A stretch of DNA of 25,592 bases. It comes from a virus. The stretch is from positions 1 to 25,592 of the IMG/VR virus record IMGVR_UViG_3300017742_000104. The stretch is one strand, 5' to 3'. The notes under the pieces are model-generated. The model saw only the letters and a program-made list of their open reading frames with translations, made no database searches and was not told where the DNA came from. The position numbers and the translations under genes are program-made. Of the stretch, positions 5,162-21,262 are shown piece after piece (position 1 is the stretch's first letter; each line of letters begins with the position of its first letter).

Positions 5162-5434
5162 ATGGCTAAAAAAATAGAAGAACATAATGAATTGATTGCA
5201 ACTAGAGTCCCACCTGGAGATAGGTGGGTTCTAGTTGGTGATCCTAAGAAGGAAGTATTTACTACTTTAACTGATGCTTTAGAAGCATTTTTACATCAAA
5301 CAGGATTTAAAGGGTCTTATAGATTAGACCCTATGGATAGTAAATTGTATGCTATTCAAACAAATGAGGTTGAAGTTAAAAAAGAAGAACCTAAAATGTT
5401 TAGTTTGTATGGAGAATTTAAACAAGGCATTTAA
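5162..5434 (+). CDS. Hypothetical 90-residue protein downstream of groEL
   Basis: Function unknown. The gene starts three bases after the groEL stop and is probably the last gene of the groES-groEL transcript, because a strong promoter (5435-5466) follows directly. The protein is soluble, with a possible alpha/beta segment VPPGDRWVLVGDPKKEVFTT, a helix TDALEAFLHQTG and a charged C-terminal stretch EVEVKKEEPKMF. There is no Cys cluster, membrane segment or catalytic motif I recognise. Its position could suggest a role linked to the chaperonin, but that is context only. Confidence 0.75.
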   Translation: MAKKIEEHNELIATRVPPGDRWVLVGDPKKEVFTTLTDALEAFLHQTGFKGSYRLDPMDSKLYAIQTNEVEVKKEEPKMFSLYGEFKQGI

Positions 5435-5466
5435 TTTGGATATATTAAATATTATTCGTATATTTA
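5435..5466 (+). promoter_or_regulatory. Promoter P2, TTTG-N20-TATATTTA, before the clamp loader genes
   Basis: TTTG at 5435-5438, a 20-base spacer and TATATTTA at 5459-5466 match the repeated promoter of this window and resemble the Bacteroidota housekeeping consensus. The -7 region is part of TTCGTATATTTAC. The first downstream start is 5489, giving a short leader with A-rich GTTATAAATAAAAAG. It probably drives the gp44-gp62 group. Confidence 0.8.
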
Positions 5467-5488
5467 CGTTATAAATAAAAAGTTATAA

Positions 5489-6397
5489 ATGAAAGATCAC
5501 GGGTTATTAGTTGAGCGTTATAGACCAATTGAATTAGAAAATTATGTTGGTAATGAGCATATTAAAAAAACTATTAAACAATATTTAGGTCAAAATGATA
5601 TTCAAAATCTTGTATTTTATGGACCTGCAGGAACGGGAAAAACAACTCTTGCTAAACTCATTGTTAAAAATCTTGATTGTGAGCATCTTTATATTAATGC
5701 CTCAGATGAACGTGGTATTGAAACGATTAGAGATAAAGTATCAGGATTTGCGTCATCAGCTAGTTTTAAACCACTTAAAGTGGTCATTTTGGATGAAGCT
5801 GATTTTCTTACTATTCAGGCGCAGGCTTCTCTCCGTAATGTCATTGAAACATTTTCGCGTACTACTAGGTTTATCTTAACTTGTAATTATATAGAACGTA
5901 TTATTGATCCATTACAATCTAGATGTCAAACACTTAAAGTTGTTCCTCCATCAAAGCAAGATATTGCTTACCATCTTATGGATGTGTTTAAAAGTGAAGA
6001 AGTTGATTGTAGTGCTGATGATTTAAAAATTATTGTAAATCAATATTACCCTGATATTCGTAAAATGCTTAATACTATCCAACTATCAATTCAAGATAGT
6101 GAAGTAGTAATAGATAAATCAGTACTTGTATCATCTAATTATATGGTTCAAGTATTAAAAGAATTAAAAAATGCTAAACCGAATTGGAGAACTATTAGAC
6201 AAATTATCGCTAATGCGAATGTTAATGATTTTGAGGAATTTTATCGTTATTTGTATGATAATGCTTCTATATACGCAAATGGAAATGAAGGAATGGTTGC
6301 TATTTATATCAACGAGTATAGTTATCAGTCTAATTTCCGTATTGATAAAGAAATTAACATAATGGCTCTTATAGCAAAATTAATAGAATTAAAATGA
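5489..6397 (+). CDS. 44: Clamp loader large subunit, AAA+ ATPase (T4 gp44-like)
   Basis: This 302-residue protein (T4 gp44 has 319) is the ATPase that opens the sliding clamp and loads it on primer-template DNA. It begins with the RFC-type box VERYRPIELENYVGNEHI. Walker A is GPAGTGKT (45-52), Walker B is VVILDEAD (98-105), sensor 1 is in FILTCNYI (128-135) and the arginine-finger motif SRC is at 144-146. The last 100 or so residues form the helical collar. T4 uses four copies with one gp62; the gp62-like partner is two small genes downstream at 6863. The end overlaps the next start as ATGA. Confidence 0.95.
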   Translation: MKDHGLLVERYRPIELENYVGNEHIKKTIKQYLGQNDIQNLVFYGPAGTGKTTLAKLIVKNLDCEHLYINASDERGIETIRDKVSGFASSASFKPLKVVILDEADFLTIQAQASLRNVIETFSRTTRFILTCNYIERIIDPLQSRCQTLKVVPPSKQDIAYHLMDVFKSEEVDCSADDLKIIVNQYYPDIRKMLNTIQLSIQDSEVVIDKSVLVSSNYMVQVLKELKNAKPNWRTIRQIIANANVNDFEEFYRYLYDNASIYANGNEGMVAIYINEYSYQSNFRIDKEINIMALIAKLIELK

Positions 6398-7894: not shown

Positions 7895-8842
7895 GTGGGA
7901 AAAAAGAAAAAATTACCTCAAATTGTAAAAGAAATAAGAGCATATAAACCTGATGAGATAAATTACTCATATCAGAAAAATGTATCATATTCTCAATTCT
8001 CTATGTATAGAAGTTGTCCTCATAAATGGGCTCTCCAATATAAAGACGGACATAAGATATTTTCATCTACAGTTCACACTGTATTTGGAACAGCTTTACA
8101 TGAAGCACTCCAACATTATTTAGATGTAATGTATGAAGAAAGTGGTGCGGCAGCTGATAGATTAGATATTTACACAATCTTTGAGGATGCTTTAAGAGAA
8201 GAATATAAAGTTCAATATAAAAAAAATAAAGGCCAACATTTTAGTTCATCTGAAGAATTAAGAGAATTTTACGAAGATGGTGTTGAAATTTTAAAAACTT
8301 TTAAAAAGAAAAAAGGACAATACTTTACAAAAAGAGGATGGTATTTAGTAGGTTGTGAAATTCCTGTTATGGTTACTCCGAATAAGTTTTATAATAATGT
8401 TATATATCAGGGTTATTTAGACATTGTAATGTATCATGAACCTACCCAAACCTTTAAAATCATAGATATTAAAACATCTACTCGTGGTTGGAATGATAAA
8501 ACTAAAAAAGATGAAGATAAACAATTTCAACTAGTATTATACAAAAAATTCTTCTCAGAACAATTTAATATTCCAATTGAAAATATTGATGTAGAATTCT
8601 TTATTGTAAAACGTAAGGTATATGATCACCCAGATTTCATAATACCAAGAATACAGACATTTAAACCTGCTTCTGGTAAAGTAAAATTAAATAAAGCTAC
8701 TAAGTCTTTAAATAGTTTTATTGAAGAAGTATTTAATAAACAAGGATATAAAGATAAAAATTACACTCCAACTCCATCAAAATGGAATTGCACTTTTTGT
8801 CCTTTTAAAGATAACCCAGAATTGTGTGGAGTGGCGCAGTAA
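7895..8842 (+). CDS. RecB/Cas4-like PD-(D/E)XK nuclease with probable Fe-S cluster
   Basis: This 315-residue protein has the RecB-family nuclease core: SYSQFSMYRSCPHKWALQY near the N-terminus, GYLD with Asp176, IDIKTS with Asp191 and Lys193, and the QxxxY motif (Q212-Y216). Cys41, Cys299, Cys302 and Cys311 bracket the nuclease domain as in AddB and Cas4, where four cysteines hold a 4Fe-4S cluster. It could act as an exonuclease in recombination or host DNA degradation. I accept the GTG start at 7895, because the first in-frame ATG lies inside the N-terminal motif and would remove conserved residues. It follows the DUF1599-like gene by three bases. Confidence 0.85.
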   Translation: MGKKKKLPQIVKEIRAYKPDEINYSYQKNVSYSQFSMYRSCPHKWALQYKDGHKIFSSTVHTVFGTALHEALQHYLDVMYEESGAAADRLDIYTIFEDALREEYKVQYKKNKGQHFSSSEELREFYEDGVEILKTFKKKKGQYFTKRGWYLVGCEIPVMVTPNKFYNNVIYQGYLDIVMYHEPTQTFKIIDIKTSTRGWNDKTKKDEDKQFQLVLYKKFFSEQFNIPIENIDVEFFIVKRKVYDHPDFIIPRIQTFKPASGKVKLNKATKSLNSFIEEVFNKQGYKDKNYTPTPSKWNCTFCPFKDNPELCGVAQ

Positions 8843-8848
8843 AAATTG

Positions 8849-8856
8849 TATATTAT
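8849..8856 (+). promoter_or_regulatory. Promoter-like -7 element TATATTAT (P9), before the RHH gene
   Basis: ATTGTATATTATAAATAATAA follows the nuclease stop and resembles the other -7 regions of the window. The -33 position (8825-8828, TGTG) matches TTTG only partly. It would drive the ribbon-helix-helix gene and then the glycan cassette. Confidence is lower than for sites with a full TTTG. Confidence 0.45.
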
Positions 8857-8875
8857 AAATAATAAATTAAAAATT

Positions 8876-9070
8876 ATGAGTAACAAAGAAATGACCTTAA
8901 CAAGTGTAAAAGTCCAAAGTGACTTGTTTGAGAATTTCAAAATTGAATGTGTAAAACGTAAATTTTCATTTCAAAAACTTTCAGATAGAGCAATTCATTT
9001 GTTCTTAACAGATGAAGATTTTAGGAAAAAAATTACTAACCATACAAATTTGGAGTTAACAGAAAAATAA
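8876..9070 (+). CDS. Ribbon-helix-helix DNA-binding protein, 64 residues
   Basis: The protein matches the Arc/MetJ-type fold: an N-terminal strand TLTSVKVQSDLF (residues 7-18), helix ENFKIECVKRKFS and helix QKLSDRAIHLFLTDEDFRKKI. RHH proteins bind DNA as dimers through the paired strands and often repress their own operon. I chose the ATG at 8876; an in-frame TTG at 8846 would place the promoter-like TATATTAT inside the gene. It sits between that element and the glycan cassette, so it could regulate either, which is inference from position. Confidence 0.7.
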   Translation: MSNKEMTLTSVKVQSDLFENFKIECVKRKFSFQKLSDRAIHLFLTDEDFRKKITNHTNLELTEK

Positions 9071-9078
9071 ATCACATT

Positions 9079-10509
9079 ATGAAAGAAGGTTATATTAAAC
9101 AATCAGATAGGAAAAAAATATTACTCCTAACTGATGATATTAGAGTACATTCAGGTGTTGCTCAAATTGGTAGAGAAATGGTTTTACACACTTCTCATAG
9201 ATATAATTGGGTACAATTAGCAGGTGCTGTAAAACATCCTGATAAAGGTAAAAGAATTGATCTATCAGCTGATAATGATAAAATTGCTGGTATTGATGAT
9301 TCTTCTATTATCTTATACCCAACGGATGGTTATGGAAACCCAGATTTACTAAGAAGTGTTATAGAAACTGAAAAACCAGATGCTATTTTCTTAATTACAG
9401 ATCCAAGATATTTTCAATGGGTGTTTGCAATGGAAAATCAAATAAGAAAAAACATTCCTATTGTTTATCTTAATATTTGGGATAGTATGCCTGCTCCTAT
9501 GTACAATAAAGAATTCTATGAATCATGTGATGCTTTATTTGGGATATCAAAACAAACAAAAGCAATTAATGAAATTGTTTTAGGTGATAAAGCTAAAGAT
9601 AAAGTTATTAAATATGTTCCTCATGGTTTAAATAATAAAATGTTCCGTCCTTTAGATAGAACAGATGAACAATTACAAAAATTTAGAAAGCATTTATCTA
9701 AAGGCAAAGATTGTGATTTTATGTTATTATTTAACTCAAGAAATATTAGGAGAAAATCAATCTCAGATACTATTTTAGCTTGGAAATTATTTTTAGATGA
9801 ATTACCTAAAGAAAAAAGAGAAAAATGTACACTAGTTCTTCATACAGAACCTGTAAGTGAACATGGAACTGATTTAGGAGCAGTTATTGAATATTTCTTT
9901 CCTAATGGTGATGGTAATGTTGTAATATCCGCAGATAAACTTTCAACAGAACAGATGAATATGTTGTATAATTGCGCTGATAGTGTTATTTTGATTTCAT
10001 CAGCTGAAGGATGGGGATTAGCATTAACTGAATCATTATTAACTGGTACTCCGTTTATTGCTAATGTGACAGGTGGAATGCAAGACCAAATGCGTTTTGA
10101 AGATGAAAATGGTGATTGGATTAATTTAGATAAAAATGTTCCTTCAAATCATAGAGGTACCTATACAAAACATGGGAAATGGGTATTACCAACATTCCCA
10201 ACTAATTTATCAATTGTTGGATCCCCAGTTACACCTTACATTTATGATGATAGATGTTCTTTTGAAGATGCTTCTGAGAAAATTATGGAAATGTATAAGA
10301 TGGGAGATGAAGAAAGAAGAGAAAGAGGTAAAGCAGGTATGGAATGGGCTTTATCAGATGAAGCAGGATTTACATCAGAAAAAATGTCTAATCGAATTAT
10401 AGAAGGATTAGATGAGTTATTTGATACATGGACACCTAGAGAAAAATTTGAATTTCTAAAGGATACTGACTTTGAATCAAGAGTTTTAAAACATGAAATA
10501 ATTTATTAA
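9079..10509 (+). CDS. GT-B fold glycosyltransferase (GT4-like), 476 residues
   Basis: It would transfer a sugar from a nucleotide donor to an acceptor that I cannot identify. The N-terminal Rossmann half opens with KKILLLTDDIRVHSGVAQIGREM, where the SGVAQ loop resembles acceptor-side loops of GT4 enzymes. The C-terminal half has the E-x7-E donor motif AEGWGLALTE (Glu310, Glu318) followed by SLLTGTPFIA. VPHGLNNKMFRPL is the usual inter-domain phrase of this class. A C-terminal helical tail follows. The next glycosyltransferase starts immediately after the stop (10510), so the two are tightly linked. It is the first enzyme of the glycan cassette, behind the ribbon-helix-helix gene. Confidence 0.88.
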   Translation: MKEGYIKQSDRKKILLLTDDIRVHSGVAQIGREMVLHTSHRYNWVQLAGAVKHPDKGKRIDLSADNDKIAGIDDSSIILYPTDGYGNPDLLRSVIETEKPDAIFLITDPRYFQWVFAMENQIRKNIPIVYLNIWDSMPAPMYNKEFYESCDALFGISKQTKAINEIVLGDKAKDKVIKYVPHGLNNKMFRPLDRTDEQLQKFRKHLSKGKDCDFMLLFNSRNIRRKSISDTILAWKLFLDELPKEKREKCTLVLHTEPVSEHGTDLGAVIEYFFPNGDGNVVISADKLSTEQMNMLYNCADSVILISSAEGWGLALTESLLTGTPFIANVTGGMQDQMRFEDENGDWINLDKNVPSNHRGTYTKHGKWVLPTFPTNLSIVGSPVTPYIYDDRCSFEDASEKIMEMYKMGDEERRERGKAGMEWALSDEAGFTSEKMSNRIIEGLDELFDTWTPREKFEFLKDTDFESRVLKHEIIY

Positions 10510-11829
10510 ATGAAAAATACATTTTACATAAGTTGCCCTATTGACACATATTCAGGATATGGAGCACGTTCTAGAGATTTTGTTAAAGCTTTAATCAAAA
10601 GCGAAAAATATGATGTTAAAATCTTACCACAAAGATGGGGAGGTACTCCATTTGGTTTTATTAAAGATCATCACAAAGAATGGGGATTTTTAAATTCACA
10701 TATTTTAAATTTACCTAATAACCAATTAGATCAACAACCTGATATTTGGTGTCAAGTAACAGTACCTAATGAATTTCAAAAAGTTGGAAAGTATAACATT
10801 GGGCTTACAGCAGGAATTGAAACTACAGCATGTGCTCATCAATGGATTGAAGGTTGTAATAGAATGGATTTAATTTTAACTTCATCCAATCACAGTAAAG
10901 AAGTTTTTGAAAGAACATCTTATAATGGTAAAAATCAACAAACAGGTCAAGAAGTTACAATTAAATTAACCACACCATGTAAAGTTTTAATTGAAGGTGC
11001 TGATTTAGATGTTTATAAAGATATTAATACAAAAGATATCCAAAACCAAGAATTATTTAATAAGATTAATTCTATCCCTGAATCATTTGCATATTTGTTT
11101 GTAGGTCATTGGATGAAAGGTCAATTAGGGGAAGATAGAAAAAATGTTGGGTTGCTTATTAAAGCATTTTATGAATTATTTAAAAACAAGAAAAAGAAAC
11201 CAGCATTAATTTTAAAAATGAGTGGTGCTGGATCTAGTTATATGGATAGATATGAAATGCAAAAAAGAATACAATCTATTCGTAATAGTGTTCCTGCATC
11301 TCAATTACCTAGTATTTATCTACTTCATGGTGAGTTTAATGATTCTGAAATAAATGAATTATACAATCACCCAAAGGTTAAATCTATGGTAAGTTTAACT
11401 AAAGGTGAAGGATTTGGTAGACCATTACTTGAATTTAGTTTAACTAATAAACCTGTAATTGCTACAAATTGGTCAGGTCATACCGATTTTCTTAAAAAAG
11501 ATTTTACACAATTGATGGGAGGTAAATTAACTAAAATCCACCAATCAGCACAACAAAAGGATATGCTAATAGAAGGTTCAGAATGGTTTAGTGTTGATCA
11601 TTCAGAAATAGGACGTTGCTTAGTTGATGTATTTAAAAATTATAAAGAATATAAAGTAAAAGGTAAACGTCAAGGGTATTATAGTAGATCTAACTTCAGC
11701 TTTTCTAAAATGGAAGAACAATTAGATGAAATTCTAACTAATAATCTCCCAAACTTCCCAGAACAAGTTACTTTATCTTTACCTCAATTTGATAGTAAAC
11801 CAGCACTCCCAAAATTAAAAAAAGTATAA
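10510..11829 (+). CDS. GT-B fold glycosyltransferase (GT4-like), 439 residues
   Basis: A second retaining-type GT-B enzyme. It begins FYISCPIDTYSGYGARSRDFVKAL, with SGYGA as the N-terminal loop. The middle has GADLDVYKD and YLFVGHWMKGQLGEDRKNVGLLIKAF, typical of the inter-domain region. The donor motif KGEGFGRPLLE places Glu300 and Glu308 seven residues apart. The segment TNKPVIATNWSGHTDFL is the standard continuation. The gene starts at the base after the previous stop and the next gene follows in the same way, so this is one transcript. It shares its plan with the upstream enzyme but differs clearly in sequence, so a recent tandem duplication is unlikely. Confidence 0.88.
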   Translation: MKNTFYISCPIDTYSGYGARSRDFVKALIKSEKYDVKILPQRWGGTPFGFIKDHHKEWGFLNSHILNLPNNQLDQQPDIWCQVTVPNEFQKVGKYNIGLTAGIETTACAHQWIEGCNRMDLILTSSNHSKEVFERTSYNGKNQQTGQEVTIKLTTPCKVLIEGADLDVYKDINTKDIQNQELFNKINSIPESFAYLFVGHWMKGQLGEDRKNVGLLIKAFYELFKNKKKKPALILKMSGAGSSYMDRYEMQKRIQSIRNSVPASQLPSIYLLHGEFNDSEINELYNHPKVKSMVSLTKGEGFGRPLLEFSLTNKPVIATNWSGHTDFLKKDFTQLMGGKLTKIHQSAQQKDMLIEGSEWFSVDHSEIGRCLVDVFKNYKEYKVKGKRQGYYSRSNFSFSKMEEQLDEILTNNLPNFPEQVTLSLPQFDSKPALPKLKKV

Positions 11830-12288
11830 ATGGATAATATGATAACGTGCCCTAGATGTGGGTCAGATGCTTGCTATGTTCAAGAAGTAAACCATGAAAT
11901 TAAAAACTATCAATGTTATGGTTGTGGGTTTATTACAAATAGTTTATTGAAAAAAGGTTCTCAATTTTTTGAAGAACAAATGGAACTTCTTCCTAATTTG
12001 TATAAAGAATTAATGGGTGAAGATGATGAAGGAATGATTTGGATGCCTTCAACTGTTAATATGCCTGAAAAAGGAATGATATTTGCTAATGGAACTGATG
12101 GGGAAAATTGGAAATGGGGAGCAGTTAAAGCAATACCAGTAAATGAAGAAGAAAAAGAAAAATATCCAATACCAGGTAAAGAAGGAGAATTCTATAAACA
12201 TAGAATGGATATGGAAACCATTAAAGAATTTGAAGAAAGAGATTATATAGAAGCTCTAGATTATATAGGAATTTTTAATAAAAACTAA
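11830..12288 (+). CDS. Zinc-ribbon protein of unknown function, 152 residues
   Basis: The N-terminus is a zinc ribbon: CPRC (Cys7, Cys10) and CYGC (Cys29, Cys32) within MDNMITCPRCGSDACYVQEV. The remaining 110 residues are acidic and have a run of WMPSTVNMPEKGMIFANG and WKWGAVKAIPV that looks strand-rich. Similar zinc-ribbon plus acidic-tail proteins occur in T4-like phages without a known role. Its location inside a run of sugar enzymes is the only functional clue. It starts directly after the previous stop. Confidence 0.75.
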   Translation: MDNMITCPRCGSDACYVQEVNHEIKNYQCYGCGFITNSLLKKGSQFFEEQMELLPNLYKELMGEDDEGMIWMPSTVNMPEKGMIFANGTDGENWKWGAVKAIPVNEEEKEKYPIPGKEGEFYKHRMDMETIKEFEERDYIEALDYIGIFNKN

Positions 12289-12291
12289 AAT

Positions 12292-12918
12292 ATGAAAATA
12301 AGTTATGCTATCACAGTTTGTAATGAATTAGTAGAAATTCAAAAACTACTCCCCTATCTTCAAAATATAATAAGAAAAGAAGATGAAATTATTATCTTAT
12401 ATGATAAAAAGAATGGTGATAAAAAAGTAGAAGAATACTTAAGAGGAAATTCTGTTGATAATAAGAAATTTAGTTGGGTAAGTAAAAATTTTAAAGGACA
12501 TTTTGCAGATTGGAAAAATCAACTAACTAAATTATGTAAGGGAGATTATATATTTCAAATTGATGCTGATGAAATTCCAAATGAAATATTAATTCAAAAC
12601 CTCCCAGCTATTTTAGAAGCTAATTCTAATGTAGAAGTTTATCATGTGCCTAGAGTAAACACTGTTAAAGGATTAACTGATGAACATATTAAAAAATGGA
12701 GATGGAGAGTAGATGATAAAGGTTGGGTTAATTGGCCTGATTATCAGATGAGGATTTACAAAAATAAAACTGAAATTAAATGGAGAAATAAAGTCCATGA
12801 AGTACTAGAAGGTCATACACAATTTTCAGCTTTACCACCTCAAGAAGAATTAGCTCTATATCATCATAAGAATATAGAAAAACAAGAAAAACAAAACTCA
12901 TACTACGATACTCTATAA
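12292..12918 (+). CDS. GT2-type (GT-A fold) glycosyltransferase, 208 residues
   Basis: The start MKISYAITVCNELVEIQKLLPYL is the usual nucleotide-binding opening of GT2 enzymes. IFQIDADEIPNE carries the DXD-type metal/donor motif (Asp91, Asp93). WPDYQMRIYKNKTEIKWRNKVHEVLEG is the acceptor-side signature seen in GT2 proteins of the WaaE/KdtX (lipopolysaccharide core) type, with HEVLEG. It is short because it lacks membrane or C-terminal extensions, so it is probably cytosolic or peripheral. The following deacetylase gene starts immediately after the stop. Confidence 0.85.
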   Translation: MKISYAITVCNELVEIQKLLPYLQNIIRKEDEIIILYDKKNGDKKVEEYLRGNSVDNKKFSWVSKNFKGHFADWKNQLTKLCKGDYIFQIDADEIPNEILIQNLPAILEANSNVEVYHVPRVNTVKGLTDEHIKKWRWRVDDKGWVNWPDYQMRIYKNKTEIKWRNKVHEVLEGHTQFSALPPQEELALYHHKNIEKQEKQNSYYDTL

Positions 12919-13602
12919 ATGGAATCTAAACCAACATATAATTTAACAATATCAATAGATGATATTCATCCTGGAGAAGGTTGGGGTAAACCTGAAGATG
13001 TTCAAATGGGTTATCTTGAAGAATTAAATAAATTGTTTGGTGCTAAATTTACATTATTTATTCCTTCAAATTACCACAATCAAGCTCCTTTATCTGAGCA
13101 TAAGGATTGGATAGATTGGTTAAAATCTAAGGATTATTTTGAATTAGCTGCTCACGGCCATTACCACCAATGTGAAAGGAATGATATTGGAGAATGTGAA
13201 TTTTTTGAATTAGACACAACTGAAAAAGCAAAAGAAAGAGTTCAATTAATGTTAAATGAATGGGAAGCTGTAGATCACAAACCTTTAGGATGGAGAAATC
13301 CTGGTTGGTTAGGTCACCCTTTAGCCATTAAAGAATTAGAGAAACATTTTAAATATTCAGCTGTCCATTATCAACATAACCATAATATAGAATGGGATTG
13401 TAAGATGTTTTTTGGTGCTGATGGCATTAATACTAATGATATTAAAATTCATAATGGAGATGTTATTATGTTTCAGTCTCATATAGCTGGTGATTGGAAT
13501 GATAATATTTGGAATGAAAGAAATTTTAACCAAATGAGATTATCTTTAGACCATCTTGTTAAAAATGCAAATATTAAATTTAAAACTTTAGGTGAATTAT
13601 GA
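12919..13602 (+). CDS. NodB-like polysaccharide deacetylase
   Basis: A 227-residue protein of the carbohydrate esterase 4 / NodB fold, which removes N-acetyl groups from sugars using a metal ion. Motif 1 is SIDDIHPG (Asp14, Asp15); motif 2 is AHGHYHQ (His79, His83 as metal ligands); motif 3 is GWRNPGW (Arg126, Trp130). There is no signal peptide, so it acts in the cytosol, on a precursor or nucleotide/lipid-linked sugar rather than on secreted polymer. It lies between glycosyltransferases and its stop overlaps the next gene as ATGA. The sequence is divergent, so the substrate cannot be read from it. Confidence 0.8.
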   Translation: MESKPTYNLTISIDDIHPGEGWGKPEDVQMGYLEELNKLFGAKFTLFIPSNYHNQAPLSEHKDWIDWLKSKDYFELAAHGHYHQCERNDIGECEFFELDTTEKAKERVQLMLNEWEAVDHKPLGWRNPGWLGHPLAIKELEKHFKYSAVHYQHNHNIEWDCKMFFGADGINTNDIKIHNGDVIMFQSHIAGDWNDNIWNERNFNQMRLSLDHLVKNANIKFKTLGEL

Positions 13603-14507
13603 AAGTAGCATTCTTTTCAGAAATGGAATCGTTCCCTAAAGAAGCTCTAAATAGAGAATATAAAAATATGAGGACAGAATTTGCATGGATGGTAGCCCTA
13701 AATGCAGATCACTATAATCTCAACGATAATAATATTTCCAAACATTATGACTTAGGCATAGCTATTAATTCCAAGAAAAACCCAGAATGGGTTAATGTTA
13801 ACAATATAAAAAAACATTGTGATAAAGTTGCTGTAATGCAAGAAGGTCCATTTTGGTATTTTCAAGATTACCCACTAAAAAACCAAATCCATTATTTTAA
13901 TAACTTAGTTGATGCTGATATTATCTATGCTCATAATGAACAAGATAGAGAATATTATAAAGGATTAACAAACCATAAAGATGTAAGAGTATTAAGATCA
14001 CTTATGTATCCTGATCCAATCAAAAATGTAACCCATCCTGAAAGTAGAAGTGGGGTTATGGTTGGTGGTAATATGAAAAGTTGGTATGGAGGGTTTGATT
14101 CATTTATATTAGCATCTTCAATTACAGATGAAATATATTCACCTCAGATGGGTAGACGTCAAGAAGGAGAAGAAGAATTAGGATTAACCCAATTACCTTA
14201 TATGATGTGGGATGAATGGATGTCTGAGTTAAGTAAAAGAAAAATTGGTATTCATATGATGCGTACGCATGCTGCCGGTACTTTTGCGTTAAATTGTTCA
14301 TATTTAGGAATTCCATGTATAGGTTATAATGGCTTAGATACCCAACGAATACTACACCCAGATCTTACAGTTAAAGATGGTGATTTAGACTCAGCTAGGA
14401 AATTAATTTTAAGGTTGGATAGTGATAAGGATTTTTATACATTATGTAGTGAAACAACATTGGCAATGTATAATGAACATTACCATGAATCTAAATTTAA
14501 AATATGA
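13599..14507 (+). CDS. Probable GT-B type glycosyltransferase, 302 residues
   Basis: The protein has a GT-B-like plan: MKVAFFSEMESFPKEALNREY opens the first domain, IIYAHNEQDREYY the end of it, and GVMVGGNMKSWYGGFDSF starts the second. The donor-side region reads HMMRTHAAGTFALNCSYLGIPCIGYNGLDTQRILHPDLTV, which resembles GT-B enzymes where a Gly-Thr loop replaces the E-x7-E motif. A specific family cannot be named. It begins overlapping the deacetylase stop as ATGA and ends overlapping a small membrane gene in the same way, so it is translated from the cassette message. Confidence 0.65.
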   Translation: MKVAFFSEMESFPKEALNREYKNMRTEFAWMVALNADHYNLNDNNISKHYDLGIAINSKKNPEWVNVNNIKKHCDKVAVMQEGPFWYFQDYPLKNQIHYFNNLVDADIIYAHNEQDREYYKGLTNHKDVRVLRSLMYPDPIKNVTHPESRSGVMVGGNMKSWYGGFDSFILASSITDEIYSPQMGRRQEGEEELGLTQLPYMMWDEWMSELSKRKIGIHMMRTHAAGTFALNCSYLGIPCIGYNGLDTQRILHPDLTVKDGDLDSARKLILRLDSDKDFYTLCSETTLAMYNEHYHESKFKI

Positions 14508-14674
14508 AAAATAAAATATTAAAGTGGTATCCAGTTGGGATAGCATTTATTTGTATGTGTTATTCTATTGGATTAGGATTAGCAGGACATACAGCTGAAG
14601 CTCAATACTCAGCTCATTGGGCTGGTACAATATTACTGTTTAGTATATCTATTAACCAAATTAATAAGCAATGA
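14504..14674 (+). CDS. Tiny membrane protein, 56 residues
   Basis: Translation from the ATG overlapping the previous stop gives 56 residues with two hydrophobic stretches: about 9-28 (YPVGIAFICMCYSIGLGLAG) and about 39-50 (HWAGTILLFSIS). The loop between them holds HTAEAQYSA. Its stop overlaps the next start as ATGA. A hydrophobic, phase-consistent frame with both overlaps makes it a likely real gene despite its size. Function unknown. Confidence 0.65.
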   Translation: MKNKILKWYPVGIAFICMCYSIGLGLAGHTAEAQYSAHWAGTILLFSISINQINKQ

Positions 14675-14853
14675 GTTTAATTATGTTTGGAGTTGGGTTT
14701 GTAATCTTTTCATTATATCTAACTCTTTTAATATGGAATATTGTTTTTAATGGTAAAAAACAAAAAGAGGAAAATTATCCTGATTTAGATATTAGTAGAT
14801 TTGATGATGTGGATATGGATGGGATTGGTAATCAGGGTAGAGTAAAAAAATAA
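14671..14853 (+). CDS. Small single-span membrane protein, 60 residues
   Basis: Residues 4-27 (IMFGVGFVIFSLYLTLLIWNIVF) form one strong transmembrane segment. After it comes a positive patch NGKKQK and then an acidic tail (ENYPDLDISRFDDVDMDG). By the positive-inside rule the C-terminal half is cytosolic. It overlaps the previous membrane gene as ATGA. An anchor or adaptor for glycan enzymes is possible but unsupported. Confidence 0.72.
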   Translation: MSLIMFGVGFVIFSLYLTLLIWNIVFNGKKQKEENYPDLDISRFDDVDMDGIGNQGRVKK

Positions 14854-14864
14854 AAACAGTAATT

Positions 14865-15032
14865 ATGAAAAAATTAGCAATAATAGGTGGTTTAAGTATG
14901 ATGGCAATGGGTGGTGGTTATATGATTCATCACAAACAGTCAATTACACCTAAATTTGAAATGAATCCAAATACATTAGCTATAGCTACTGGTGGGTTTT
15001 TTGTAACATTAGGCTTAACATATAGATTTTAA
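14865..15032 (+). CDS. Tiny membrane protein, 55 residues
   Basis: The protein starts MKKLAIIGGLSMMAMGGGYM, a glycine-rich hydrophobic segment, and ends TLAIATGGFFVTLGLTYRF, a second one. The middle is polar (HHKQSITPKFEMNP). The first segment could be read as a signal peptide, but no cleavage site is clear. It is the third small membrane gene in a row; the epimerase gene follows after one base. Function unknown. Confidence 0.65.
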   Translation: MKKLAIIGGLSMMAMGGGYMIHHKQSITPKFEMNPNTLAIATGGFFVTLGLTYRF

Positions 15033-15033
15033 A

Positions 15034-15876
15034 ATGAAAATATTAGTAACAGGTGGAGCAGGGTTTGTAGGGACTAATCTTATTAAGAGATTCTTAAAAG
15101 ACAAACATGAAGTAACATCAATAGATAATTACAACACAGGGTTAGAATTAAATCATCAAGAAGGTTGTACTTATTTAAATTATGATATCCGAAATATAAA
15201 GGATTATTCACCTTGGGGTAACTTTGATGTTGTATTTCATATGGCAGCTATTGCTAGAATCCAACCATCATTTGATAATCCAAAAGATTATTTTACGGTA
15301 AATGCTAATGGTACTATGAATATTGCAGAGTGGTGTGCTAAAACTAGTACTCCATTAATATACGCTGGTTCATCGTCAAAACACAGTGGTAAATATAAAA
15401 ACCCATATACTTTTAGTAAAGATATTGGTGAGGAAATACTTGAATTATATAATAAACATTATGGTTTAAAATCCTCAATTACTCGTTTTTATAATGTATA
15501 TGGCCCTCACCAGTTAGTAGAAGGTGGGTATACTACTTTGATAGGAAGATGGTTAAATAATATTAAAAAAGATATTCAATGTGAAATATATGGAGATGGT
15601 GAGCAACGAAGAGATTTTACTCATGTAGATGATATTGTAGATGCTTTAATTTTAATCATGGAAAAAGAAGCCTATGGGTTAGAATTTGAACTAGGAAGAG
15701 GAGAAAACCATTCAGTAAATGAAGTAGCTAAAATGATGAATATAGATCCAATTTATAAAGATGGGAAAAAAGGTGAAGCAAGAAATACTCTTAATACTGA
15801 CCCTACAGCTTTTACAGTATTAGGTTGGGTCCCTAAAATAGATTTAGTAAATTATTTAAAAACACAAATAAAATGA
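15034..15876 (+). CDS. NAD-dependent sugar-nucleotide epimerase/dehydratase (extended SDR)
   Basis: A 280-residue extended short-chain dehydrogenase that would interconvert nucleotide sugars and supply donors to the nearby glycosyltransferases. The NAD-binding motif is TGGAGFVG (6-13), then SIDNYNTG with the Asp that selects NAD. FHMAAIARIQPSFDNP matches the FHLAA strand of UDP-glucose 4-epimerases. The catalytic set is Ser114 with Tyr125-x3-Lys129 in PYTFSKDIGEE. RFYNVYGPHQ and GDGEQRRDFTHVDDIVDAL are the usual substrate-side motifs. UDP-sugar 4-epimerase is the best guess; a GDP- or dTDP-sugar enzyme cannot be excluded. The stop overlaps the methyltransferase start as ATGA. Confidence 0.93.
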   Translation: MKILVTGGAGFVGTNLIKRFLKDKHEVTSIDNYNTGLELNHQEGCTYLNYDIRNIKDYSPWGNFDVVFHMAAIARIQPSFDNPKDYFTVNANGTMNIAEWCAKTSTPLIYAGSSSKHSGKYKNPYTFSKDIGEEILELYNKHYGLKSSITRFYNVYGPHQLVEGGYTTLIGRWLNNIKKDIQCEIYGDGEQRRDFTHVDDIVDALILIMEKEAYGLEFELGRGENHSVNEVAKMMNIDPIYKDGKKGEARNTLNTDPTAFTVLGWVPKIDLVNYLKTQIK

Positions 15877-16529
15877 AAGAATCAGATAATACCCACATTG
15901 ATGAGTTTGATAGGTTTAAATATCCTGCATCTTCTACCTCAGTAGATAGATACATATTTGCAAACAGTTATACAAAAGGTAAAACAGTATTAGATGCTGC
16001 TACTGGATATGGATATGGAGCTGGAATATTATTATCTTTAGGGGCTAAAAGTGTAGTTGGAATTGATATTGATGAAGATGCAGTTAATGATGCTAATGAG
16101 AGATTTGAATCCCCCAAAGCAGTATTTCAAACTTGTGATATTTACAACTTAACAGATTCTTTTAAAGAAGATGAATTTGAAGTATGTACTTCTATTGAAA
16201 CCTTTGAACACCTCCCTCCAGAAAGATTAGATGAATATTTACAATCTTTAAGAAAAGTTACTTCTGAGTTAATTTTTATTACAACACCTAAACGTAAAAC
16301 TGAAAAATGGGTTTACGATGGGGGAACTCATTTATATGAATACGATCCTCAAGAATTTGTAGATGCCCTAAATAGAAATTTCCCAAATGATACTGTTGGT
16401 GGGTTTGGTATAGTTGAAATTCCTTTAAAATCATCAGTCCCTGGAGTTGAAAGACAATGGGGGTCAGCTATTACTAGTAACCTAAATGAAGCATGGGTTA
16501 TGGTTGGAATTATACAATTGAATAAATAA
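15873..16529 (+). CDS. Class I SAM-dependent methyltransferase, 218 residues
   Basis: Motif I is VLDAATGYGYGAGILL (about 39-54), where Gly45 and neighbours bind S-adenosylmethionine. The acidic residue after strand 2 is in VVGIDIDEDAV. Motif IV-like CTSIETFEHLPPERLDEYL is the signature of the UbiE/SAM-MT class, with EHL. HLYEYDPQEFVDAL follows, as in sugar O-methyltransferases and small-molecule enzymes. DNA-methylase motifs (DPPY, PC) are absent. Its place between an epimerase and a GT2 enzyme suggests methylation of a sugar or glycan end. It starts overlapping the epimerase stop as ATGA; the next gene follows after one base. Confidence 0.85.
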   Translation: MKESDNTHIDEFDRFKYPASSTSVDRYIFANSYTKGKTVLDAATGYGYGAGILLSLGAKSVVGIDIDEDAVNDANERFESPKAVFQTCDIYNLTDSFKEDEFEVCTSIETFEHLPPERLDEYLQSLRKVTSELIFITTPKRKTEKWVYDGGTHLYEYDPQEFVDALNRNFPNDTVGGFGIVEIPLKSSVPGVERQWGSAITSNLNEAWVMVGIIQLNK

Positions 16530-16530
16530 A

Positions 16531-17598
16531 ATGGAAAAAATAACATTTGTAATACCAAGTAGAAATAATTTAGAATTTTTACAATTAGCTTATAAATCAA
16601 TTCGTAATTTAAATACTAAACATGAAATATTAGTATTAAATGATGCTAGTACAGATGGTACTGAAGAATGGATTAATAACCAAGATGATGAAGATCTGAT
16701 AGTACATCACAATCCAGGTCCTGAAAGAATAGGTATTGTGGGTATGTTTGATAAAGGTATTGAAATGGCTCGTACTGATATTATTATGGCTTATCATGCT
16801 GATATGGTTGCAGGTCCTAATTTAGATGAACATATACTAAAACACCTAAAAAAAGGTACAGTTGTAAGTGCAACTAGAGTAGAACCTCCATTACACCCAG
16901 ATGGTCCTGAAAAAATGTTAGTTGACTTTGGGATTGAAGTAGAAGATTTTAATATAGATAAATTTAATGAATGGGTATTAAATGAATATAAACCCAAACA
17001 TAATAAATTAGTCACTGAAGGTATATTTGCACCCTGGTGTATGTATAAAGAAGATTTTTTAGCAATTGGGGGACATGATGAATTATTTGCCCCACAATCA
17101 AAAGAAGATTCAGATATATTTAATAGGTTTGTTTTAAATGGTTATAAAGTATTGCAGACATGGGAAGGTTTAGTTTACCACTTTACAAGTAGAGGTAGTA
17201 GATTTAATAAACATGCTGGGGGTGCAGCTGGAAAAAATTCAGACGAGTGGTTGCAAACAACTACTACTAATATGAAAAAATTTATTAAAAAATGGGGCAC
17301 ACCTGTACAACATGATGCCTTTATGAAACCTATTATCACCCCAGTATATAATAAATGTCTTGTTATTAATAATACAAACCCACAATTAGAGGAAGCTTTA
17401 GAATGTTGGTTTAATAATGGAGTCGATGTTGAGGTAGAAATAGATGGAAATACATTTACCCAACAGGATTTTCAAATCATTCAACAGCTAAATGCTATTA
17501 TTAAAGATAGTGGTGAAGTTGGTGAATTTAAAATAGGAAATATATTTGTTAGAATCAATAAACTTCAAGAACGTCAAAACGATTTAATTAAAGTCTAA
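16531..17598 (+). CDS. GT2-type glycosyltransferase, 355 residues
   Basis: The opening MEKITFVIPSRNNLEFLQLAYKSI with LVLNDASTDGTEEW is diagnostic of GT2 (GT-A fold) enzymes, DAS being the nucleotide-binding site. The DXD position reads AYHADMV (His89, Ala90, Asp91), an accepted variant. PWCMYKEDFLAIGGHDELFAPQSKEDSDIFNRF is the acceptor/catalytic region with GGHDE and EDSD. About 100 C-terminal residues (YNKCLVINNTNPQLEEALECW onward) form an extra domain of unknown role. It ends the glycan cassette; TAATATTTATAAT begins at its stop codon. Confidence 0.9.
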   Translation: MEKITFVIPSRNNLEFLQLAYKSIRNLNTKHEILVLNDASTDGTEEWINNQDDEDLIVHHNPGPERIGIVGMFDKGIEMARTDIIMAYHADMVAGPNLDEHILKHLKKGTVVSATRVEPPLHPDGPEKMLVDFGIEVEDFNIDKFNEWVLNEYKPKHNKLVTEGIFAPWCMYKEDFLAIGGHDELFAPQSKEDSDIFNRFVLNGYKVLQTWEGLVYHFTSRGSRFNKHAGGAAGKNSDEWLQTTTTNMKKFIKKWGTPVQHDAFMKPIITPVYNKCLVINNTNPQLEEALECWFNNGVDVEVEIDGNTFTQQDFQIIQQLNAIIKDSGEVGEFKIGNIFVRINKLQERQNDLIKV

Positions 17599-18831: not shown

Positions 18832-19467
18832 ATGCCTAAAGCAAAACCACTTAGTAAAGAACAAATATTAGCAGCTATATCTCAAACAAGATCAAATAGA
18901 GCAGCTGCTAGGTATTTAAATGTATCTTATCCCCATTATAAAAAATGGGCTGAATTATATGATTCAGCAGAACCAGGTTATAAAAGTTTATTTGAACAGC
19001 ATTTAAACCCTTCAGGTAAAGGTATACCTAAGTTTTTAAGCAATAAAGGTAAAGAACCCGCATTATTAGATATAATTGAGGGTAGAGTAGATGCTTCTTC
19101 TTTTTCTCCTGATAAAATTAAGTATAGACTTGTAAGTGAGGGATATTTATTAGAAGAATGCTCATCATGTGGTTTCCACGAACGCAGGGTAATTGATTAT
19201 AAAATCCCTCTATTGTTACATTTTAAGGATAAAAATAAAAAAAATTATCGTAAAGATAATATTGAATTTTTATGTTACAATTGTTATTATCTTTCAGTTG
19301 GAGATATTTTTAATGAAAAACAAATTGAAGGTATAGAAGATCATAAACCTGTAAGTTCAGGTGAAGTAGATTGGGAATTAGATCCTTATACAGAACAACG
19401 GTTAAAGGAATTAGGATTAGGAGATAATGACAAGGATGATGATATGGATATTGTAGCTTATTTATGA
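18832..19467 (+). CDS. HTH plus degenerate HNH-like zinc domain protein, 211 residues
   Basis: Residues 8-32 look like a helix-turn-helix (KEQILAAISQTRSNRAAARYL, then NVSYPHYKKW). Residues 110-152 hold CSSC (Cys110, Cys113), LLLHF (His130), NYRKDNIEF and CYNC (Cys148, Cys151), which parallels the CxxC...LHH.dg..nnr.eNL..LCpNCH pattern of HNH endonucleases. The second His of the HH pair is Phe and the final zinc-ligand His is Tyr152, so nuclease activity is doubtful. It could be a DNA-binding regulator derived from a homing-type endonuclease. The acidic, hydrophobic C-terminus DDDMDIVAYL is also notable. The stop overlaps the next gene as ATGA. Confidence 0.65.
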   Translation: MPKAKPLSKEQILAAISQTRSNRAAARYLNVSYPHYKKWAELYDSAEPGYKSLFEQHLNPSGKGIPKFLSNKGKEPALLDIIEGRVDASSFSPDKIKYRLVSEGYLLEECSSCGFHERRVIDYKIPLLLHFKDKNKKNYRKDNIEFLCYNCYYLSVGDIFNEKQIEGIEDHKPVSSGEVDWELDPYTEQRLKELGLGDNDKDDDMDIVAYL

Positions 19468-20357: not shown

Positions 20358-20502
20358 ACCATCTCCATATGATATTTTAGATACGTTTGACGAGGATTTA
20401 TGGGTAGAACTCATATTAAAAAGCCCCAATACTATTAAAATTATATGTCTTATGTTAAGTTTAGATTTACAAATAGAAAAAGAATATAATGAAAAACAAT
20501 AA
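20341..20502 (+). CDS. Small hypothetical protein, 53 residues
   Basis: The frame overlaps the previous small gene by 17 bases and the kinase gene by 14. The product begins MTIEGKPSPYDILDTFDEDL, with an acidic helical region and a hydrophobic segment PNTIKIICLMLSLDL. That segment is too short to be a secure membrane span. Function unknown. Confidence 0.55.
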   Translation: MTIEGKPSPYDILDTFDEDLWVELILKSPNTIKIICLMLSLDLQIEKEYNEKQ

Positions 20503-21262
20503 CATACTAATCATTGGAGAACATTGTATAGACAAATTTGAATATTGCATTTCAAATCGTTTATCTCCTGAAGCACCCGTCCCAGTACTTAATCCTTATT
20601 CTGTTAGAATAAATGAAGGTATGGCTGGAAATACCAAACAAAATGTTAAGGCATTAGTTGAAACTAAATTTTGGGATATTAATTCTATTTTCCCTAAAGA
20701 TAAAAATACAGGGTATGATTTAACAATAACTAAAACACGTTATATAGAAGAAAAATCAAACCATATGTTTTTTAGGGTTGATGAAGGAGAAGATGATATT
20801 GAACCTTTTAAATGGGGAATAGATACTGATGTATTAATTGGTCAAGCTGATATAGTAATTGTAAGTGATTATGATAAAGGATTTTTAAGAAATCTAGATT
20901 TAATAGAAATTGCTAATAAATCAACTTTATCTATTTTGGATAGTAAACGTAAACTTACTAATGATATTATTAAGAACTTTGACTTTGTAAAATTAAATAA
21001 ATCAGAAAGTAATAATAATCCTAATCTAACAACTGATAATATTATAACAACCTTAGGTTCATTAGGTGCTGAATACCAAGACACAATTTACCCATCTCCA
21101 AACCCTCAACAAACAATAGATGTAAGTGGAGCTGGGGATACATTCACAGCTGCTTTTATAATAAAATATTATGAAACTAAAGATGTAGATTTATCTATTG
21201 AATTTGCTAATGAGAAATCTGCAGAAGTAGTAAGTAAACGTGGAGTAGTGGTTCCTTCTTAA
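20489..21262 (+). CDS. PfkB-family sugar kinase resembling the HldE/RfaE heptose kinase domain
   Basis: A 257-residue kinase resembling the N-terminal D-beta-D-heptose-7-phosphate kinase domain of E. coli HldE. Matches are ILIIGEHCIDKFEYCISNRLSP (compare GDVMLDRY) with SPEAPVPV, NEGMAGNTKQNVKAL (compare GGAANVAMN), FFRVDEG (compare LIRLDFEEG), SDYDKGFL (compare SDYAKGAL), ILDSKRK, and the catalytic IDVSGAGDTF (Gly214-Asp217). It is shorter than the 318-residue HldE kinase domain and lacks the nucleotidyltransferase half. Heptose-1-phosphate or another sugar phosphate may be the product. It sits 3 kb from the glycan cassette, so it may feed that pathway. Confidence 0.85.
   Translation: MKNNNILIIGEHCIDKFEYCISNRLSPEAPVPVLNPYSVRINEGMAGNTKQNVKALVETKFWDINSIFPKDKNTGYDLTITKTRYIEEKSNHMFFRVDEGEDDIEPFKWGIDTDVLIGQADIVIVSDYDKGFLRNLDLIEIANKSTLSILDSKRKLTNDIIKNFDFVKLNKSESNNNPNLTTDNIITTLGSLGAEYQDTIYPSPNPQQTIDVSGAGDTFTAAFIIKYYETKDVDLSIEFANEKSAEVVSKRGVVVPS

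Follow-up and report, generated by a model that had tools for sequence, protein, structure and literature searches.

We analysed a 25,592-nucleotide stretch of viral DNA (IMG/VR record IMGVR_UViG_3300017742_000104, positions 1 to 25,592; hereafter the window) that carries a dense row of sugar-related genes at positions 9079–17598. Comparison with related phages reveals that this row has two parts: four genes (GT4a, GT4b, ZnR and GT2a) make up a fixed core whose divergence follows that of the phage backbone, and the genes behind them are exchanged. The cassette is not a random collection of morons; the array is far beyond chance, and the core recurs in every related locus tested. An initial reading made without database searches (the sequence-only reading) had described a single cassette. 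Its gene set is real, but it passed over both the division into core and block and the ZnR gene within the core. To the interpretation that the locus glycosylates a phage-encoded protein, probably of the virion, with an O-antigen-like variable outer chain, we give a slightly better than even chance.

GT4b was found in 39 viral contigs. So that the test would not be circular, the nuclease, HNH-type protein and clamp loader genes of the same locus served as markers to fetch further contigs. Conservation counts use only independently fetched loci that are distinct and extend at least 5 kb after the nuclease; an earlier census of 73 loci had included loci fetched by GT4b. The marker searches reach mainly the window's own lineage, and universality is claimed only there. 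All four core genes are present after the nuclease in 55 of 55 such loci, as they are in each of the 37 loci fetched by the HNH or clamp-loader markers alone. Of 16 large records, the cultured phages immuto and Mel-JY01 among them, a single one lacks GT4b: G024 (locus L152), a contig that starts inside the cassette. In Microcystis phage Mel-JY01 the nuclease is likewise followed, at the corresponding place, by GT4a, GT4b, GT2a and GT2b, the GT4a homologue being split into two annotated genes (L050, 13480–14971). In Rhodothermus phage RM378, a homologue of GT4a comes before a protein distantly similar to GT4b. Pairwise identities of GT4a and GT4b are tightly correlated (r=0.94), and those of GT4a also correlate with the clamp loader (0.79) and the HNH-type protein (0.76). 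The corresponding values for GT4a are 0.33 against the epimerase and 0.15 against c17.

Nearly all of the window's close relatives carry homologues of the genes up to GT2a, mostly at 50–97% identity, whereas homologues of the segment 12919–16529 are almost absent there. The NodB-like deacetylase, epimerase, methyltransferase and GT2b genes are 62–75% identical to those of four other loci (L153, L165, L169 and L174), whose core GT4 enzymes share just 51–58% identity with the window's. The block is thus more alike in divergent phages than in close relatives, and has therefore moved between lineages. Thirty gene arrangements occur among the 32 loci that span the cassette. Alternative block genes encode aminotransferases, hexapeptide acetyltransferases, a WbqC-like protein, UDP-glucose dehydrogenase, a cytidylyltransferase-like protein and several methyltransferases, and two loci (L199 and L147) hold the core and one open reading frame (ORF) of ~100 amino acids only.

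The cassette genes all lie on the + strand and are nearly gapless, in line with the coupled row described initially. The core begins with GT4a (9079–10509) and GT4b (10510–11829), which both match PF00534 (1.8e-6 and 1.6e-8, respectively) and are thereby upheld as GT4-like enzymes. The best solved relative of the GT4a family profile is chlorovirus B736L (3oy2, 4.6e-14). The structure-based search suggested in the sequence-only reading gave the same structure as the best fold match (E 3.8e-16) of an AlphaFold2 model of GT4b (pLDDT 88). ZnR (11830–12288) is a small protein whose alignment displays a Cys-x2-Cys / Cys-x2-Cys ribbon. In the Bacteroidota-phage group it is tightly linked to GT4b and counts as part of the fixed core; it is absent from the more distant L029–L042 group and from Mel-JY01. 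The fourth core gene, GT2a (12292–12918), encodes a small stand-alone GT-A enzyme of 208 amino acids that matches PF00535 (6e-7). Catalytic motifs of the cassette glycosyltransferases are intact, as judged from their families and invariant residues.

The exchangeable block opens with a NodB-like (DUF2334) deacetylase (12919–13602, +; PF10096, 2e-12) that keeps its metal-binding residues D14/D15 and H79-x3-H83 in conserved positions, as polysaccharide deacetylases of this family do, and lacks a signal peptide, consistent with the cytosolic location first proposed. It also occurs in L004, L005, L043–L046, L153, L165, L169 and L174, and has no match in annotated phage records. Adjoining it in most of these loci is a GT-B-like enzyme (13599–14507, +), for which the evidence is weaker than for its neighbours: it has no Pfam match, and its AlphaFold2 model (pLDDT 73) resembles the GT-B enzymes BshA, Gtf3 and PglA with a best E of 3e-9 but low TM scores of 0.3–0.47. 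An extended short-chain dehydrogenase/reductase (SDR) that is a nucleotide-sugar epimerase/dehydratase (15034–15876, +; PF01370, 5e-46) bears the TGGAGFVG and YxxxK motifs. Its identity is 62% to immuto and 72–75% to L153, L165, L169 and L174, but 27–44% to the window's own close relatives. The next gene encodes a small-molecule-type S-adenosylmethionine-dependent methyltransferase (15873–16529, +; PF13649, 2e-13) that shares 70–75% identity with those of the same four loci and is absent from the window's own close relatives. The cassette is closed by GT2b (16531–17598, +), a long-type GT-A enzyme (PF00535, 1.2e-15) that is 61% identical to that of immuto, 81–84% to those of L139 and L141–L143, and ~25% to the short type found in the window's own close relatives. 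Both GT2 enzymes, the epimerase and the methyltransferase are therefore as the sequence-only reading had named them, and its statement that the set suffices to make and modify an oligosaccharide fits this enzyme content.

Three tiny ORFs (14504–14674, 14671–14853 and 14865–15032, all +) had been listed as membrane proteins of the cassette. They are hydrophobic, and two of the three have a clear transmembrane segment by hydropathy, but as parts of the system they were rejected, being absent from the other cassettes at this position. Two of them have weak-to-moderate relatives outside the cassette in two phage contigs (the first weakly in L168 and L185, the second, with one weak relative, in L185), and none was found for the third. 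They are probably incidental.

Where the glycan is assembled bears on what it is attached to. No protein with at least three hydrophobic or transmembrane segments occurs among 364 genes in 32 cassettes, and the only matches to transmembrane segments among these genes are two of the tiny ORFs and one gene in L192. The polyprenyl-phosphate sugar-1-phosphate transferase family PF02397 was not found in 21 records, a search in which 9 of 14 control genomes were positive. A flippase or polymerase, which had not been visible in the window, was found in none of the cassette variants, nor was an initiator. With neither a polytopic membrane protein nor a phosphoglycosyl transferase, assembly should therefore be cytosolic, and the predicted system looks purely cytosolic in every variant.

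This arrangement bears directly on the idea that the enzymes remodel the host cell surface (lipopolysaccharide core or O-chain) and so block superinfection, with the core transferases acting in the manner of peripheral WaaG-type enzymes on host lipid-linked acceptors. Such a role has been proposed for similar glycosyltransferase islands in pelagimyophages and cyanomyophages (PMC7029224); the predicted GT4b fold also matches WaaG, at ranks 37 and 42; some variants encode UDP-glucose dehydrogenase; and a heptose-7-phosphate-kinase-like gene of the PfkB family lies just outside the cassette at 20489–21262. That gene, overlooked in the sequence-only reading, matches heptose-7-phosphate kinase (rfaE domain I) at 6e-28, below the curated cut-off, and is 33–43% identical to cyanophage carbohydrate kinases. 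It is, however, separate from the cassette and rare in these loci, occurring in 13 of the fetched loci. Neither an initiator, a flippase, a polymerase nor any other polytopic membrane protein accompanies the enzymes in any variant, the core evolves with the phage backbone, and phages whose hosts are Bacteroidota retain the same core as one whose host is a cyanobacterium, although these hosts would be expected to present different surface acceptors. We therefore regard a host-surface target as unlikely. Because the core stays with the phage across hosts of different phyla (Flavobacterium and the cyanobacterium Microcystis), the acceptor is most simply phage-encoded.

A phage-borne acceptor could also be DNA, the enzymes glycosylating modified bases as protection from restriction, as do the T4 glucosyltransferases and the glycosyltransferases coupled to TET/JBP enzymes. 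Phages are known in which several glycosyltransferases hypermodify DNA (Pyle et al. 2024, as cited in PMC12619734), the cassette adjoins replication genes, and QueC is present in immuto and in 6 of 11 long viral contigs (G019–G021, G023, G026 and G028), so that some members of the lineage probably have a modified guanine. Yet a base-modification route common to all carriers was rejected, with PF00303, PF00145 and QueC each missing from several of them: QueC is absent from the complete Mel-JY01 genome and from G025 and G027, which both carry GT4b; relatives of thymidylate synthase and dCMP hydroxymethylase (PF00303) are absent from three contigs of 164 kb; and C5-methyltransferase (PF00145) occurs only in Mel-JY01. 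A long, variable oligosaccharide also exceeds what DNA protection needs. A Tet/JBP search of the cassette carriers gave no match, but the control was also silent, and a PF01702 (TGT/DpdA) search missed even the annotated DpdA of immuto. Taken together, glycosylation of DNA appears improbable.

Two further observations concern possible base modification. Immuto carries an annotated set of 7-deazaguanine DNA-modification genes, including DpdA and a formyltransferase-like gene (L047, 18607–36093). In the freshwater group, a divergent thymidylate-synthase-like ORF of 232 amino acids lies upstream of the cassette (L052, 1210–1908, and L279; records G015 and G001), and it is also found in L033 and L034; it could be a dCMP hydroxymethylase-type enzyme. 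On a separate matter, a GT4b-like domain sits inside very long ORFs far from the cassette in Mel-JY01 (W02, 5212–5991; 1234 amino acids) and in G026 (9368–9778; 1244 amino acids).

The relatives of GT2a point to a protein acceptor. The standout solved relative of the GT2a family profile is the glycosyltransferase domain of Listeria GmaR (2.3e-10, 43.7 bits), which transfers N-acetylglucosamine to flagellin (PMC9638930). The alignment runs end to end and includes the DADE motif and the R-I-Y-K-N...VHE segment, so that GT2a shares with the GmaR/SunS-like class both the DxD motif and the HE segment, and transfer to protein is predicted. The second match is SunS, a peptide glycosyltransferase (28.7 bits). 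The GT2b profile, unlike that of GT2a, ranks GmaR far down. The GmaR match came from the family profile only; phmmer with the GT2a sequence alone found no match in the PDB. GmaR has extra TPR and antirepressor domains, whereas GT2a shares the glycosyltransferase domain and stands alone. We consider GT2a a candidate for the protein-attaching step.

GmaR is bifunctional, acting as flagellin glycosyltransferase and antirepressor (PMC9638930), and all enzymes of the cassette are cytosolic. The locus might thus make a free or nucleotide-linked oligosaccharide, or modify a non-virion cytosolic protein of phage or host, such as a regulator or defence protein; ZnR resembles Zn-ribbon transcription factors very weakly. 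An internal target would not readily account for the serotype-like variability of the outer part, however, and we judge such a product or acceptor to be decidedly unlikely. The fixed core, the lack of a membrane step, the nearness of GT2a to protein-modifying transferases and the lack of shared base-modification genes together make a phage protein, of the virion or otherwise, a likelier target than the host surface or DNA. The sequence-only reading held that the sequence could not choose among these targets; the comparative evidence does rank them.

A virion protein appears to be the best remaining candidate for the acceptor, and a gp23-type capsid gene is present in 11 of 13 large records. 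We propose that a T4-like (gp23-type) phage lineage uses this locus for glycosylation: in the host cytoplasm, the four core genes would initiate a glycan and lengthen it on a phage-borne acceptor, most likely a virion protein. GT2a may attach the first sugar to the protein, after which GT4a and GT4b would build the inner chain. The exchangeable block would make and add the outer part through its SDR epimerase, deacetylase, methyltransferase, and GT-B-like and GT2b transferases, the deacetylase exposing an amino group. A swap of the block would change the outer sugars, as in bacterial O-antigen types, and virions of related phages would then differ in their coats. What the comparison shows is the gene content, the constancy of the core, the exchange of the block and the lack of any encoded membrane step; the acceptor, the reaction order and the sugars themselves we infer. 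The benefit, likewise deduced, is probably evasion of factors that block adsorption or recognise particles, or else a fine adjustment of adsorption.

Certain points weigh against glycosylation of a virion protein. The acceptor is deduced and the enzyme activities are predictions. The GT2 and GT4 families each take in a wide range of enzymes, and GmaR is a remote relative of GT2a. The chlorovirus 3oy2 entry is a crystal structure, and its likeness to the core enzymes is one of sequence and fold. Moreover, the neighbours of the cassette are genes for replication and chaperones, not structural genes, and no late promoter is shown; T4's own DNA glucosyltransferases are likewise not late. Sigma-70-like sites in the window are at chance level, and no terminator signal there rises above chance.

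Phage-encoded virion glycosylation is already known, having been shown for a few mycobacteriophages: in Che8, Corndog and Myrna, phage glycosyltransferases put glycan on capsid and tail-tube proteins (Freeman et al. 2023, as described in PMC12363180 and PMC12619734). Intact transferase motifs are found here as well, and cytosolic assembly without an export step is predicted from the genes. The mycobacteriophages likewise use phage-encoded cytosolic enzymes, but have one or few of them and infect other hosts, whereas the present locus combines a fixed core of three glycosyltransferases with an exchangeable sugar-synthesis block, and its acceptor is deduced.

Chlorovirus-encoded capsid glycosylation bears a general likeness to the locus. 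It too employs a virus-borne cytoplasmic set of glycosyltransferases, among them B736L, the nearest solved match of GT4a and GT4b, but chloroviruses are eukaryotic giant viruses and have no homologous operon. Bacterial O-antigen and capsule loci share conserved edges and an exchangeable sugar-specific centre; Wzx/Wzy loci, however, have Wzx, Wzy, an initiator and export genes, none of which was found in the window locus. Serotype conversion by prophage gtrABC was rejected as a model: GT2b matches the GtrB PHROG in the glycosyltransferase domain only, without transmembrane segments, and there is no multi-transmembrane partner. The host recognition cluster of pelagimyophages and cyanomyophages is a hypervariable glycosyltransferase island in T4-like phages that has been read as a host-surface modifier (PMC7029224), but it lies among structural genes with tail fibres, whereas the window locus lies among replication genes and has a constant core. 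In the literature searched, with partial coverage, we found no description of a constant core with an interchangeable O-antigen-like block amid replication genes; a similarly partial search found no literature on glycosylated RM378 or immuto and no nucleoside data on 7-deazaguanine in immuto.

The window itself is a linear virus fragment with its genes on one strand. It carries genes for a split family-B DNA polymerase, a sliding-clamp-like protein, Hsp20, GroES, GroEL, the clamp loader and the PD-(D/E)XK nuclease, as well as the sugar cassette, the gene for the HNH-type protein and later genes. The nuclease (7895–8842, +), an independent marker and constant left neighbour, is syntenic in immuto, Mel-JY01 and all relatives. 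A small conserved ORF without a Pfam match, called RHH (8846–9070, +), is the usual left neighbour, occurring in 48 of the 55 independently found loci. The HNH-type protein (18832–19467, +), likewise an independent marker, is the constant right neighbour, syntenic in immuto and the 32 spanning loci. Among 50,697 phage records, DNA-level similarity to the window was confined to records of Flavobacterium phage immuto (vB_FspM_immuto, Immutovirus), at the epimerase/GT2b end of the cassette. Immuto shares the locus order, with nuclease, small ORF, two glycosyltransferases, Zn-ribbon protein, GT2, variable genes, epimerase and GT2 followed by the window's right-hand neighbours, and has a homologous core, epimerase and GT2b. 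Its centre, however, holds aminotransferases and acetyltransferases in place of NodB and the methyltransferase, and its DNA polymerase is of family A, not B. In the window, the family-B polymerase occupies two ORFs (within 1–1541) that overlap as ATGA at 609–612. This split is kept in close relatives, with 0.2–0.9 kb of other DNA in the gap in L067, L091, L118, L127 and L212, and the distant relatives L033, L085 and L050 have one intact ORF.

The carriers are phages of marine and fresh waters that form a widespread group, and the locus always occupies the same position in their genomes. It is possible, although we would give this broader proposal less than an even chance, that this abundant aquatic T4-like lineage has 'serotypes': on a constant virion glycan core, the outer chain would vary as phages trade its synthesis genes in ready-made blocks, whatever the taxonomy of their hosts, and the particles would thereby differ in antigen-like fashion in the face of recognition by bacteria or by the environment. 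The locus is present in two cultured phages, immuto and Mel-JY01, in which its target is directly accessible. Were the proposed virion glycosylation borne out, every member of a large T4-like lineage, most of it uncultured, would glycosylate its virions and exchange the outer sugars in the manner of O-antigens, and one would then have to ask what recognition of phage particles is strong enough to favour coats that keep changing.

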